A stretch of 46,565 nt of DNA, from NCBI GenBank assembly GCA_016929295.1, contig JAFGJB010000170.1:1-46565 (forward strand), given 5' to 3'. The notes beneath the pieces are model-generated. The model did no database searches. It was not told the DNA's origin and worked only from the letters and a program-made list of their open reading frames with translations. Below are positions 17,927 through 38,953 of this stretch, piece after piece. Numbering within the stretch: position 1 is the stretch's first letter; each line of letters starts with the position of its first letter. The position numbers were made by a program, and so were the translations under genes. This DNA is from Candidatus Zhuqueibacterota bacterium (GTDB taxonomy: Bacteria > Zhuqueibacterota > Zhuqueibacteria > Residuimicrobiales > Krinioviventaceae).

Positions 17927-19477
17927 CTATATTAATTTTTCGCTGATCGATTTTGCCTGCATGAATAGACCCAGATAATCCTGGCCGCCGGCTTTAGAGT
18001 CGGTGCCGCTCATATTGAAGCCACCGAAAGGATGCGCGCCGACCATGGCGCCGGTGCATTTTCGATTGATATATAAATTCCCGACAAAAAAGTCGCGTTT
18101 CGCTTTCTCTATTTTGAAACGATCTCGAGTATAGACCGCACCTGTGAGACCATACTCTGTGCTGTTGGCAATATTGAGCGCGTTGTCAAACGAAGAGGTT
18201 TTCAGCACTGCCAGCACCGGGCCAAAAATCTCCTCCTGATCCAGACGGGCGCCGGGTTGAATGTTTTTAAAAATTGTCGGCTTGATGAAATAACCATCGC
18301 CGGGCGCTTTGCCGCCGCCGGTCAGCAGATCGCCTTCGGCTTTGCCGAGTTCAATATAACGTAAAATTTTCTCTTCCGATGCCTGATTGATGACCGGTCC
18401 CATGACGTTTTTCGCATCGCGCGGATCACCAATGGTTATTTTTTCCGCGAGATCAACCAACATTTGGGTGAACTTTTTGTGAATTTTATCCAGGACAATG
18501 ACGCGAGAACAGGCTGAACATTTCTGCCCCTGATAGCCAAATGCGGATGCGATGACATTGGCAGCAGCGTCGTTCAGGTCCGCGTCTGTATCCACGATGA
18601 TCGTGTCCTTGCCGCCCATTTCGGCAATCACTCGTTTGATCCAGAGCTGTCCGGCACTGTGTTTGCCGGCCAGCTCGATGATTCGCAATCCGACTTCTTT
18701 GGAGCCCGTGAAGGAGATGAAACGGATTTTCGGATGTTGCACGATGTAATCGCCGATTTCGCTGCCGCTGCCAGGGATAAAATTCAATACGCCGGCCGGC
18801 AAGCCGGCTTGCTGCATAATTTCAACGAGCAAATGGCCGACGGCTGGAGCATCGCTGGCAGGTTTGAGCAGAACGCAGTTGCCGGTCACAATAGCTGCAA
18901 CCGTCATCCCCGTTAGAATTGCCATGGGAAAGTTCCACGGCGGAATGATCGCCCCCACACCCAATGGCACATATCGCAGTTCCGGCAGCTCATTGGCAAA
19001 GGCCGTCACCCCTTTGATCTCACTCCAGCGAATCATTTCGCGGGCGTAAAAGTCGCAAAAGTCGATGGCCTCCGAGGTGTCGGCTTCGGCTTCAATCCAG
19101 CTCTTGCCGGTTTCAACAATCATCCAGGCGTTGATCTCAAACTTGCGGCGACGCATGATTTGCGCTGCTTTCAGCAGCACGATGGCACGTTCTTGCGCTG
19201 GAACCTGACGCCAGGTCTCCCACGCGAGCATGGCCGCGTCTATTGCCATGTCCACTTCATGTTTGCTCGCTTTGTAAAATGCGCCGATGATCGCTTCCTT
19301 GTCTGATGGGTTGTAGCTCTTGAAAAGACGGTCACTTTTGATCTTTTTGCCGTCGATAAACAATTCATATTTGCGGCCAAACTGATTCTCAACAAACCTG
19401 ATCGCTTCTTCCTGAGCGGCTTTATTTTCCGGATGACTAAAATCGGCATAGGGTTCATTACGAAATTCGGCTAGCAT
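17927..19477 (-). CDS. rocA: L-glutamate gamma-semialdehyde (1-pyrroline-5-carboxylate) dehydrogenase RocA
   Basis: An aldehyde dehydrogenase of 516 residues from ATG 19477, which has a near-ideal AGGAGGT ribosome site; the frame is open further upstream to 19513 but that start is inferior. The catalytic pair is seen as Glu286 (RVIAEMGGKD) and Cys320 (GYQGQKCSACSRV), the positions of Bacillus-type RocA. Other landmarks: 'VPLGVGAIIPPWNFPMAI', 'FISFTGSKEVGLRI' and the C-terminal 'MVGAHPFGGFNMSGTDSKAGG'. It oxidises P5C/glutamate semialdehyde to glutamate with NAD, the last step of proline and arginine breakdown. The SelW-like gene lies 81 nt upstream on the same strand. No proline dehydrogenase domain is fused or adjacent. 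Confidence 0.95.
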   Translation of the reverse strand: MLAEFRNEPYADFSHPENKAAQEEAIRFVENQFGRKYELFIDGKKIKSDRLFKSYNPSDKEAIIGAFYKASKHEVDMAIDAAMLAWETWRQVPAQERAIVLLKAAQIMRRRKFEINAWMIVETGKSWIEAEADTSEAIDFCDFYAREMIRWSEIKGVTAFANELPELRYVPLGVGAIIPPWNFPMAILTGMTVAAIVTGNCVLLKPASDAPAVGHLLVEIMQQAGLPAGVLNFIPGSGSEIGDYIVQHPKIRFISFTGSKEVGLRIIELAGKHSAGQLWIKRVIAEMGGKDTIIVDTDADLNDAAANVIASAFGYQGQKCSACSRVIVLDKIHKKFTQMLVDLAEKITIGDPRDAKNVMGPVINQASEEKILRYIELGKAEGDLLTGGGKAPGDGYFIKPTIFKNIQPGARLDQEEIFGPVLAVLKTSSFDNALNIANSTEYGLTGAVYTRDRFKIEKAKRDFFVGNLYINRKCTGAMVGAHPFGGFNMSGTDSKAGGQDYLGLFMQAKSISEKLI

Positions 19478-19558
19478 GGTGACCTCCTGTTGAAGCTTTT
19501 CTATCGTATTCATGTGATTTCATCTGTCTTGTGCCGCTTGCTGACAACTGTCACATCA

Positions 19559-19774
19559 TCACTGCAATTTCTTTACAATCTCTTCGGTTGTCGGAAAGCG
19601 TCCCAGAGCCTTTTTTGAAAAAATGAGAACATTATCTCTTTTCACCTCAAAAACACCGCCGCCGGAACGTATGAGCTCGATATCGATGCCGAGAGCATTT
19701 TTAATATCAGCTGCCAAACTGACAGCCTTTGGGTAATAATTTCACATGCCGCAATATTCAATTGAAACGTGCAC
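19559..19774 (-). CDS. Selenoprotein W-like (Rdx family) thioredoxin-fold protein with in-frame UGA (predicted selenocysteine)
   Basis: Read from GTG 19774 on the minus strand, 71 codons run to TGA 19559-19561 (followed by a second TGA), with a single internal TGA at 19744-19742. Reading it as Sec gives MHVSIEYCGMU at the N-terminus: Cys8-Gly-Met-Sec11, the CxxU redox motif of SelW/Rdx. The remainder fits that family throughout: 'NYYPKAVSLAADIKNALG', 'IDIELIRSGGGVFEVKRD', 'NVLIFSKKALGRFPTTEEI', ending VKKLQ. Length (about 70-90 in the family) is normal and no frameshift is needed. An AAAAGGA site lies 7 nt before the GTG. A sigma-70 promoter lies about 90 nt upstream and a SECIS-like hairpin directly after the UGA. 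rocA follows 81 nt downstream. The alternative is a pseudogene or base error of a Cys form, but the intact remainder and hairpin argue against this. SelW-like proteins are thiol-redox proteins of unclear substrate. Confidence 0.85.
19709..19727 (-). promoter_or_regulatory. Candidate bacterial SECIS hairpin inside the SelW-like gene
   Basis: Starting 14 nt after the internal UGA, GGCUGUC (19727-19721) pairs with GGCAGCU (19715-19709) to give a 7-bp stem including two G-U pairs, around the 5-nt loop AGUUU. A short stem with a G among the first two loop bases, about 16-37 nt after the UGA, is the usual description of bacterial SECIS elements read by SelB; here the loop begins 21 nt after the UGA. 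Confidence 0.7.
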
Positions 19775-19864
19775 GGCCAATCCTTTTTTGTGAGGTTCTG
19801 TGGCTTTTATGGCTATTCATCGTCGGTCATAAGCAAACCATCTTGGTGATTTTGCTTTTCGGCC

Positions 19865-34772: not shown

Positions 34773-35135
34773 GGGGACGAAACTGGTTTCGACGGGTTAC
34801 GTGGTGTTAGTGGCGGCATGTCGAGGAGGTCCTGGTCACCTCGTAAATCAACCGGGAAAAAAAAGTAATTGCAGACAATTACAGCTACGCTCTGGCTGCT
34901 TAATTGACAGCCAGCGCCCGCTTTCGGTTGTGCCCGCTGGGCTGAAAGATGGGCGTCAGATGCAGTGGGATAGTCATCTGTGATGTCTCGGCGGAGATGA
35001 TGAAACTTTACGAGGCTGGGTCGCTTTGGGTTCGTTCGACGCACCAGAAGTGATCGAGACACAAGCGTTGAACTACACATGTAAATGCTGCTATGGCCGG
35101 TTTCTCGGACGCGGGTTCGACTCCCGCCGTCTCCA
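34773..35135 (+). ncRNA. ssrA: Transfer-messenger RNA (tmRNA)
   Basis: The 5' end GGGGACGAAACTGGTTTCGA and the 3' end with the T-arm CGGGTTCGACTCCCG and acceptor strand CGTCTCC form the tRNA-like domain: GGGGACG pairs with CGTCTCC (one G-U). The tag reading frame begins at GCA 34871 and reads ADNYSYALAA, then TAA at 34901; the ALAA end is the usual degradation signal. The discriminator A at 35135 is followed by CTA, so the terminal CCA is not encoded and would be added enzymatically. tmRNA frees stalled ribosomes and tags the unfinished protein for proteolysis. The length of about 363 nt is normal. An intrinsic terminator follows at 35147. Confidence 0.96.
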
Positions 35136-35146
35136 CTACAATAATC

Positions 35147-35176
35147 AAGCCCTGTCAAGTGAGGCAGGGCTTTTTT
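35147..35176 (+). terminator. Intrinsic terminator of ssrA
   Basis: AAGCCCTG (35147-35154), 10-nt loop, CAGGGCTT (35165-35172), with T-run to 35176. Confidence 0.9.
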
Positions 35177-35230
35177 GTTCAAGCCAATTGCACAAAGTTT
35201 CAGTCTGATAAATATGACCTGGAGATCAGG

Positions 35231-38200
35231 ATGCGGAATCGATTAATCATGCGTCTTTTTTTTAGTGTGTTCTTTTTGGCAACCGCCGGATTTGCGACGG
35301 AACAGGATAATTATGTGCCGGGAGAACTCATTGTCAAACTCGGGCAAAAGAGTGCCTATTCAGCGTTGGGTAACATCTCTGCTCTGCATGCGATCTCGCA
35401 CAAGTATGGCATACAGAGCGTTGAAGCCATTTTTTCATCACGGCCAACCTTTTCCGCGCTGGATAATTTATTCCTCTGCAGAACAGCAAAAGATGTTGAT
35501 CTACAACAGTTGGCGGCACAGATGAGCGGCGAGCTCGATATTGAATACGTCCAACCCAATTATCTCCATCGAACGACCGTGACTCCCAATGATCCCTTTA
35601 TCTCACAACAGTATTATCTGGCGCAGATTCAGGCCTACGAGGCCTGGGACTATTCCAAAGGCGCTCGGGATGTCATCATTGCTATCATTGATACAGGCGT
35701 GGACTATGATCATACGGATCTGGCGGCCAACATCTGGACGAACGCCGACGAGGTGATCGATGGTCTCGATAATGACGCCAACGGCTATATCGATGACATT
35801 CGCGGCTATGATTTTGTCGACAATGCGGGAAATGCCGCACCAGGCGAGGATGGCGATGAAGAGGATAATGATCCGATTGATTTTCACGGCCACGGCACCA
35901 ATGTCGCCGGCATCGCGTCCGCCGTGACAAATAATGCGACCGGCATTGCGGGTGTGGGCTGGGGTTGTGCGATCATGCCGATTCGCGCGGGCTACCAGGG
36001 AAGCGATGGCAATGGCTACCTGGCATCAGCTGCCATCATAAAAGCAATTTATTATGCGACTGATAACGGCGCGGACATCATCAACGCCAGTTTTGGCGGC
36101 ATTCCGGATGATTTTGCTCAGCGCGATGTGTTCCGCTATGCCTTCATGAACGGTCTCGTCATTGTCAAGGCCGCCGGAAATAACAGTTCAGCTGTTCCTG
36201 AAACACCCGGCCAAGAAGACTGGATCCTCAGTGTAGCTTCCGTGACCAGCAATGACACACGATCCAACTTTTCCAATTATGGCCGTTGGGTGAAAATTTC
36301 AGCCCCTGGAAGCGGCATCTATACAACCTCACGCAATAATCGCTACAGCACTCTTCAGGGCACGTCGGTCGCTGCTCCCATGGTCGCCGGCGTCGCCGGA
36401 TTGGTGAAAACGGCGCATCCGGACTGGACAGCGGCGCAGATTATGATGCACATCGTCGACACCGCCGATAATATCGATGCGATGAATCCAGACTATAAAG
36501 GTGAACTTGGCAAAAAAGGTCGCCTCAATGCCGTCAATGCGCTGAGCACGCCATTTCAATCGCGTCCGGAGCTGGTCGTCAGACGCGTCACCGTGGAGGA
36601 CTGGCTCACCGGCAATGGCGATGCGCGTTTAAATGTTGGCGAGACGTCCGATCTGGTGATTCGCATCGCCAACAGATGGTCTGATGCAGCAAATGTCACA
36701 TTGACGCTTTCCACAGACGATCCGTCGATCCAGGTGCTCGATAACACGAGCTCATTTGCCTGCATCCCGGGCATCGCTTCATCTATGAACTATGTTGACA
36801 CGGTCGATGATCTTTTGCGTGTGCAGGTCGATGACCATGCATTCCCGCATAACGTGCATTTTACGTTGGCCATCAGCGCCGACGGCGGTTTCGAGCAAAC
36901 CATTGGCTTGCAGATCGGCATCGAGGCCCGTCTTCTTTTTGTCGATGATGATGACGGCCAGCTCAATGTCGAGGATTACTATTTTTCCGCGCTCGATTCC
37001 ATCGGCATGCCCTATGATATCTGGGACCGATCGACGCAGGGGAATGCGGGCGCGCGACTGCGGAACTATGACATGATCATCTGGTCGTGCGAGAGCGCCA
37101 TGCCGACCCTGGACGATAGTGATACCGAGGATCTGCAATCCTTTTTACGACAGAGCAAGCGCCTCTTCATCGCCGGGCAAAATATCGCCTGGGATCTGTG
37201 TGCGCCACAAACGAATGAGGATGCCAGTGCGCGCAATTATTTAAACCAATATCGCCAGACCAATGGCGGATCAAAACTTTTCTATGAGAACTATCTGCAG
37301 GCCTCATTTGAAAATGATGCCTCCAGTTATTCCCTGGTGCAGGGTGTGGCTTCGGATGCGATTGGCAGCGGCTTAAGTTTTGCCGTTTTTGAACCGTTGC
37401 GCAGCGCGGCCGAACAATCTCGCGACGTCATCGGCGCTACCAGTTACAGCGCAGCGGTCTTTCAGTATCCAGATGGTCAGGTCGCGGCGACGCGCAGCGA
37501 CCGTCTCGGCAAGGTGATCAATTTTGCCTTTGGCGGCTTTGAAGCGATCGCGGACGAGAGCGCTCGCCTGACGGTCATGAGGCGAATAATTGACGAGTTC
37601 ACCGGCCTGCAGGTATCGGTGGCGGATCTGGTCTATGTGGAGGGGCTCGGCGACGATTTTGTCGTGCAGGCGCTCGTCCGCAGCACGGCAGCGCCGGCAG
37701 CCGTTCGTCTCTACTGGCGCACGCTGGATCAGCAGCTCTTCACGATGGCGCCGATGGCCGCCTGCGATTCGCTCTATCAGGCGACGATCCCGGTGCCCGC
37801 TCATGGCTCTGTGCTCGAATACGGCGTCCAGGCTGTCGCCGAATCCGGTCTCTATTCGCCCATCAGGATGAAAAGACTAAAGATCGTCAAGCCCGTGCCG
37901 GCCGTGACGGCAGCGACCGTCAAAAAAACGAGTCTCAGCTGTCGGCCTTTCGTGCAGATGGTCGCCTCGCACGTCGCGCCGATCGACACCGCCAGCGCCC
38001 GCGTGCTCTTCTGGAATGACGTGACGCCACTCGACAGCTTGCAGCTGCAACACCTCGGCGGTACTCTGTTCGGCGGAGAGATTGTTGGCGGCTTTAAACA
38101 TCGGGATTCGCTCTTTTATCAGTTCAGCGTGCTCGACCGAACAGCCAATCCGGCTCGCGGCGTGTCGCCGGTCTACAGTATGGTAGTGGGCGTGGAAGAC

Positions 38201-38953
38201 TTTGAGTCAGGGCTGGACGACTGGCACGCGACGGAGGGCGGTTGGGGCCTGGAGACGTTGCGAAAAAATTCGGGGAGCTATTCACTGCACGAAAGCCCGA
38301 ATGGCGACTATCCGGATAATGCCGAATTGATCGTCACGCTCAAGCGCGGCCTTGATCTGTCCAATTTATCCGAGGCGACACTGTCCCTGTGGATGCTGTA
38401 CGGCTTTCCCTCCGGTGACGCCGGCTATGTGGAAGCCAGTCATGACGGTGGTCAAACATGGGCGACGCTGGCATTGCCCATTGAAGGTGCTGCTGCGAGT
38501 TTTTATAATGCGCAGTTTTCCTTAAGTGATTATACGGGACCGGGCATGCATGATGTTCTCATTCGCTTTCGCTTCAATACCGATGAGGCGAATAGCGGCC
38601 CGGGCTGGTTCATCGATGATGTGAGCATTTTGCCGATCGCAACTGCCGTTGCCGGGAGAGATGGAACACCGCCTGCCGAATTCGAGCTGTCACGCAATTA
38701 TCCCAATCCCTTCAATTCAACGACGACGATTCGCTACACGCTGCCGGCGGAAATGGATGTGCGATTGGTGATCTATAATACGCGCGGTCAACAGGTGGTG
38801 ACCCTGGTCAACGGGAAACAATCGGCCGGCTCTTTCGCCGCTTGCTGGGACGGCTTTGATTCGGATGGCAATCTTGTCCCCAGCGGACTTTATTTTTATA
38901 AACTGGATGCCGGTGGTTTAACGGCGGTGAACAAGATGACCGTGATCAAATGA
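35231..38953 (+). CDS. Large secreted subtilisin-like (S8) protease with C-terminal sorting domain
   Basis: 1240 residues from ATG 35231, chosen because GGAG lies 6 nt before it and a signal peptide (about residues 7-24) follows; the open frame upstream crosses the tmRNA and is not coding. A prodomain ('YVPGELIVKLGQK', about 30-115) precedes the S8 domain with Asp154 ('IAIIDTGVDYDHTDLA'), His221 ('HGHGTNVAGIASA') and Ser379 ('GTSVAAPMVAG'). Long beta-rich regions follow, including an N-glycan-like jelly roll near 'VEDFESGLDDWHA'. The last 90 residues, from 'NYPNPFNSTTTIRYTLP', are the FlgD-like sorting domain. Probably an exported proteolytic enzyme for nutrient or self-processing; the substrate is unknown. 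Confidence 0.93.
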   Translation: MRNRLIMRLFFSVFFLATAGFATEQDNYVPGELIVKLGQKSAYSALGNISALHAISHKYGIQSVEAIFSSRPTFSALDNLFLCRTAKDVDLQQLAAQMSGELDIEYVQPNYLHRTTVTPNDPFISQQYYLAQIQAYEAWDYSKGARDVIIAIIDTGVDYDHTDLAANIWTNADEVIDGLDNDANGYIDDIRGYDFVDNAGNAAPGEDGDEEDNDPIDFHGHGTNVAGIASAVTNNATGIAGVGWGCAIMPIRAGYQGSDGNGYLASAAIIKAIYYATDNGADIINASFGGIPDDFAQRDVFRYAFMNGLVIVKAAGNNSSAVPETPGQEDWILSVASVTSNDTRSNFSNYGRWVKISAPGSGIYTTSRNNRYSTLQGTSVAAPMVAGVAGLVKTAHPDWTAAQIMMHIVDTADNIDAMNPDYKGELGKKGRLNAVNALSTPFQSRPELVVRRVTVEDWLTGNGDARLNVGETSDLVIRIANRWSDAANVTLTLSTDDPSIQVLDNTSSFACIPGIASSMNYVDTVDDLLRVQVDDHAFPHNVHFTLAISADGGFEQTIGLQIGIEARLLFVDDDDGQLNVEDYYFSALDSIGMPYDIWDRSTQGNAGARLRNYDMIIWSCESAMPTLDDSDTEDLQSFLRQSKRLFIAGQNIAWDLCAPQTNEDASARNYLNQYRQTNGGSKLFYENYLQASFENDASSYSLVQGVASDAIGSGLSFAVFEPLRSAAEQSRDVIGATSYSAAVFQYPDGQVAATRSDRLGKVINFAFGGFEAIADESARLTVMRRIIDEFTGLQVSVADLVYVEGLGDDFVVQALVRSTAAPAAVRLYWRTLDQQLFTMAPMAACDSLYQATIPVPAHGSVLEYGVQAVAESGLYSPIRMKRLKIVKPVPAVTAATVKKTSLSCRPFVQMVASHVAPIDTASARVLFWNDVTPLDSLQLQHLGGTLFGGEIVGGFKHRDSLFYQFSVLDRTANPARGVSPVYSMVVGVEDFESGLDDWHATEGGWGLETLRKNSGSYSLHESPNGDYPDNAELIVTLKRGLDLSNLSEATLSLWMLYGFPSGDAGYVEASHDGGQTWATLALPIEGAAASFYNAQFSLSDYTGPGMHDVLIRFRFNTDEANSGPGWFIDDVSILPIATAVAGRDGTPPAEFELSRNYPNPFNSTTTIRYTLPAEMDVRLVIYNTRGQQVVTLVNGKQSAGSFAACWDGFDSDGNLVPSGLYFYKLDAGGLTAVNKMTVIK

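Follow-up and report, generated by a model that had tools for sequence, protein, structure and literature searches.

Selenoprotein W (SelW) had been described in bacteria by 2005 (PMC1088965) and is the most numerous selenoprotein family of ocean surveys (PMC2398784). The SelW-like selenoproteins of the Sargasso Sea and the Global Ocean Sampling data carry a CxxU motif, an in-frame UGA and a bacterial SECIS hairpin directly downstream of it, as does the selW gene described here (PMC1088965, PMC2398784), although those proteins come from marine metagenomes whereas the present gene lies in a draft genome with relatives titled KSB1 or Calditrichota. For Campylobacter jejuni SelW, Ribo-seq coverage beyond the UGA together with proteomic confirmation has documented readthrough (PMC11955535). 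C. jejuni belongs to a different phylum, and the present protein, with Cys in place of selenocysteine (Sec), exceeds the cut-off of NCBIfam model NF041051 (SelTWH_Campy) by a small margin (91.3 bits against 88, E 3.4e-26). Cys-containing members of the wider Rdx family are present among solved structures: Atu0228 (2fa8) and C17orf37 (2ljk) match the present SelW in sequence over nearly the full length of the shared domain (E about 2e-7), but have CxxC where it has CxxU.

The gene lies on the minus strand of the window, by which we mean the whole 46,565-nucleotide stretch of DNA that was analysed. The features that bear on it are the following:

19559..19774, minus strand: selW gene, with a GTG start at 19774, 71 codons and a TGA stop at 19561-19559, identified by its frame and family matches.
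19742..19744, minus strand: in-frame TGA at codon 11, read as Sec in the motif CxxU (C-G-M-U); TGA in every aligned homologue.
19781..19785, minus strand: probable ribosome-binding site AAGGA, six bases 5' of the GTG, by direct reading.
19709..19727, minus strand: SECIS-like hairpin, GGCUGUCA GUU UGGCAGCU, 8 bp, its apical loop containing a G.
17927..19513, minus strand: L-glutamate gamma-semialdehyde (P5C) dehydrogenase, 45 nt downstream of selW (NF002852, 779.6 bits).

An earlier, sequence-only reading had proposed a 71-codon minus-strand frame here with a single in-frame TGA and a normal stop, and its coordinates proved exact to the base: the frame has 71 sense codons, exactly one internal TGA (codon 11) and a closing TGA. 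That reading had also put the internal TGA at the Sec place of the SelW/Rdx family (Cys-Gly-Met-UGA), and the TGA at codon 11 does stand in the motif Cys-Gly-Met-Sec. With this codon read as Sec, the product is VHVSIEYCGMUNYYPKAVSLAADIKNALGIDIELIRSGGGVFEVKRDNVLIFSKKALGRFPTTEEIVKKLQ, in which IEYC-G-M-U occupies residues 5-11; the CxxU motif stands where the family has it, close to the N-terminus and past the first strand, and both its Cys and its TGA are aligned in homologues.

A search for the Rdx (SelT/SelW/SelH) domain, which the sequence-only reading had suggested as a check, was positive with all three models used. With the TGA translated as Cys, Pfam Rdx (PF10262) matched at E 1.8e-17 over positions 1-72 of 74, and TIGR02174 (CXXU_selWTH) scored 50.8 bits against a cut-off of 34.2 (E 1.5e-13), alongside the NF041051 match given above. 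Judged by sequence comparison, the Rdx match of the frame is far beyond chance, and because of these matches we regard the family assignment as settled.

Counting from the first base of the UGA, the SECIS-like hairpin spans nucleotides 17-35, and its small apical loop with a G and its placement fit the described bacterial SECIS (PMC1088965). Since the stability of the window hairpin alone is not unusual (z about -0.95 to -1.4), the case for it rests on comparison across relatives, from which three gammaproteobacterial-type rows with a different hairpin were set aside. Across 79 distinct homologues, the eight pairs are formed in 83% of cells (paired fraction 0.83), against 0.18-0.47 in shifted registers and against 62.8% (sd 1.3, maximum 66.9%) in 500 permutations of synonymous codons that kept the protein. 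The stem covaries: one position shows six pair types (CG, TA, AT, GC, TG and GT). The two outermost pairs are unpaired in many homologues. Cells in which both sides had changed numbered 69 against a control mean of 55.5, a difference that is not strong as the sole count. The excess of folding falls in 42-nt stretches that begin 0-12 nt from the UGA, with little or none over the remainder of the gene. The gammaproteobacterial-type SelW (L117, L119 and L131) lacks the SLAA stretch and has the hairpin CUCGCGC CGUGA GCGCGAG, which appears to be a second SECIS form within selW.

The sequence-only reading had also proposed looking for the Sec machinery, and most of it was present in the window's genome: selA (565.3 bits), selB (378.9 bits) and two selD matches (390.7 and 379.4 bits), all above curated cut-offs. 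The tRNA-Sec was the exception, not being found in the draft although it is present in a same-genus genome (G010). Searches of the draft (367 contigs, 95.97% complete) with the Rfam model, with strict and looser patterns, and by DNA comparison with the same-genus copy did not find a tRNA-Sec; the patterns gave nothing or chance-level matches, and the 2 kb region flanking the same-genus gene has no counterpart in the draft by DNA comparison. The sub-cut-off Rfam candidates proved to be ordinary tRNAs (Leu, Ser, Cys, Gly, Tyr, Lys and others), and a pattern candidate on contig C276 was a tRNA-Leu. Elsewhere in the order, tRNA-Sec occurs in 16 of 22 genomes (63-73 bits), the same-genus genome included, and ARAGORN called a tRNA-SeC in each of the ten scanned among these 16, with anticodon TCA as in the same-genus genome. 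Nine of the 13 selW-bearing genomes of the order have it, and none was found in the other four (the window's genome, G003, G017 and G020); in the genome search only some candidates are scored, which makes a negative there weak evidence. A 2022 survey reported selA, selB and selD but no selC in candidate phylum KSB1 (PMC9012183), whereas the genomes that match KSB1-titled records (G021, G004 and G001) do have tRNA-Sec.

The two selD genes differ from each other. Sec-containing SelD is a known type of selenoprotein, and the 379.4-bit selD, on the reverse strand of contig C216, encodes the motif CAG-U-ASK, with TGA in frame where the catalytic Cys would stand and a foldable stem after it, making it a second selenoprotein gene in the window's genome. 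In the other (contig C245) the active-site residue is Cys, and SelD is the C-terminal portion of a frame of 743 residues whose N-terminal region by eye resembles a NifS-type aminotransferase. The genome thus combines a Sec-type SelD with a fused Cys-type SelD.

The observation in favour of a readthrough of the UGA other than by Sec insertion, with Trp, Cys or another residue placed there through stop-codon reassignment or suppression, is that no tRNA-Sec was found in the draft. We consider this alternative very unlikely: TGA is an ordinary stop in the window, where it terminates 13 of 26 genes, selA, selB and selD are all present in the genome, a covarying SECIS-like hairpin lies 3' of the UGA, and the same-genus genome has a tRNA-Sec. 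Reassignment of the genetic code in particular was rejected on the ordinary use of TGA as a stop in the window and on its conservation at the Sec codon across phyla.

That conservation holds at every scale surveyed. In the order, selW is found in 13 of 22 genomes, the window's included, each time with one internal TGA (13/13), and in the phylum it is found in 43 of 82, with TGA the sole stop in the best full-length match of all 43; one additional match (G061), weak and partial, has TAA as well as TGA. Among the best 80 of 170 GTDB-wide relatives, codon-by-codon alignment places TGA at the Sec position in 80/80, and the Cys codon of CxxU is TGC or TGT in 80/80. The TGA-bearing homologues share 42-70% identity and come from many phyla, their record titles naming KSB1, Calditrichota, Zixiibacteriota, Krumholzibacteriota, Neomarinimicrobiota, Planctomycetota, Acidobacteria, Gemmatimonadota, Deltaproteobacteria, Gammaproteobacteria and Firmicutes, and Desulforamulus putei and other isolates are among the best 80. 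The order and GTDB-wide sets overlap, some loci being on identical contigs. Since the TGA is present in all aligned homologues across these phyla, neither an error nor a local change of code explains it. A nonsense mutation, or TGC/TGT misread as TGA, in a SelW gene of the Cys type was accordingly rejected as extremely improbable, for although a fresh pseudogene would likewise show one internal stop in an intact frame, every homologue examined conserves the TGA at that codon, across independent genomes.

The sequence-only reading had expected homologues with Cys at the Sec position; the close homologues all have TGA instead, which is stronger evidence for Sec. The query of the homologue search had Cys at this position, so any bias would be towards Cys homologues. 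In the 82 genomes of the phylum, SelW homologues were found in the Sec form (43) and not in the Cys form (0), the other genomes yielding none, which suggests that SelW has been lost rather than converted to a Cys form.

We therefore consider it almost certain that the locus is a functional selW whose UGA codon 11 is decoded as Sec through SelB, Sec-tRNA(Sec) and the SECIS hairpin. The observations behind this explanation are the frame, the family membership, the conservation of the TGA, the covarying hairpin and the selA, selB and selD genes, and from them we infer Sec insertion and a redox role. The family matches, the conserved TGA and the machinery genes likewise bear out the original interpretation of the stretch as selenoprotein W. 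The locus would encode a 71-residue, thioredoxin-like selenoprotein of the Rdx family with a CxxU redox motif. SelB with Sec-tRNA(Sec) would recognise the hairpin 17-35 nt downstream and decode codon 11, and translation would terminate at the TGA 61 codons past the Sec codon, acting as a normal stop. Most likely the protein serves as a small thiol/selenol oxidoreductase, and its Cys-Sec pair may form a selenenylsulfide with thiol partners.

The P5C dehydrogenase gene is probably co-transcribed with selW. In many relatives it is found near selW; in several the distance downstream is about 1.1 kb, and a gene for a TPR protein, which the window lacks, stands in between. A frame of M29 peptidase type stands upstream of selW in three of the relatives read (one of them was used to test the M29 match), giving the recurring order M29 peptidase, selW, TPR protein, P5C dehydrogenase. 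This order is a lead to function, not proof. It is conceivable, but unlikely, that SelW in this lineage acts with the downstream dehydrogenase, for example by keeping its catalytic Cys reduced; if true, such a link would tie bacterial SelW to amino-acid or proline catabolism. Elsewhere in the window, a tmRNA gene lies at 34773-35136, and the listed start of a long subtilase-like frame (35093-38953) overlaps its 3' end, so the true start of that frame is probably later.

The stretch is a real selW, and since the family has long been known in bacteria, it corrects the annotation without being a gene of a new kind. The gene calls put right are those that end at the UGA in a poorly studied and under-annotated phylum. 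The presence of tRNA-Sec in most genomes of the order, KSB1-titled ones included, contrasts with the survey that reported no selC in KSB1 (PMC9012183), and the selW locus is itself good evidence for the use of selenocysteine in the phylum.
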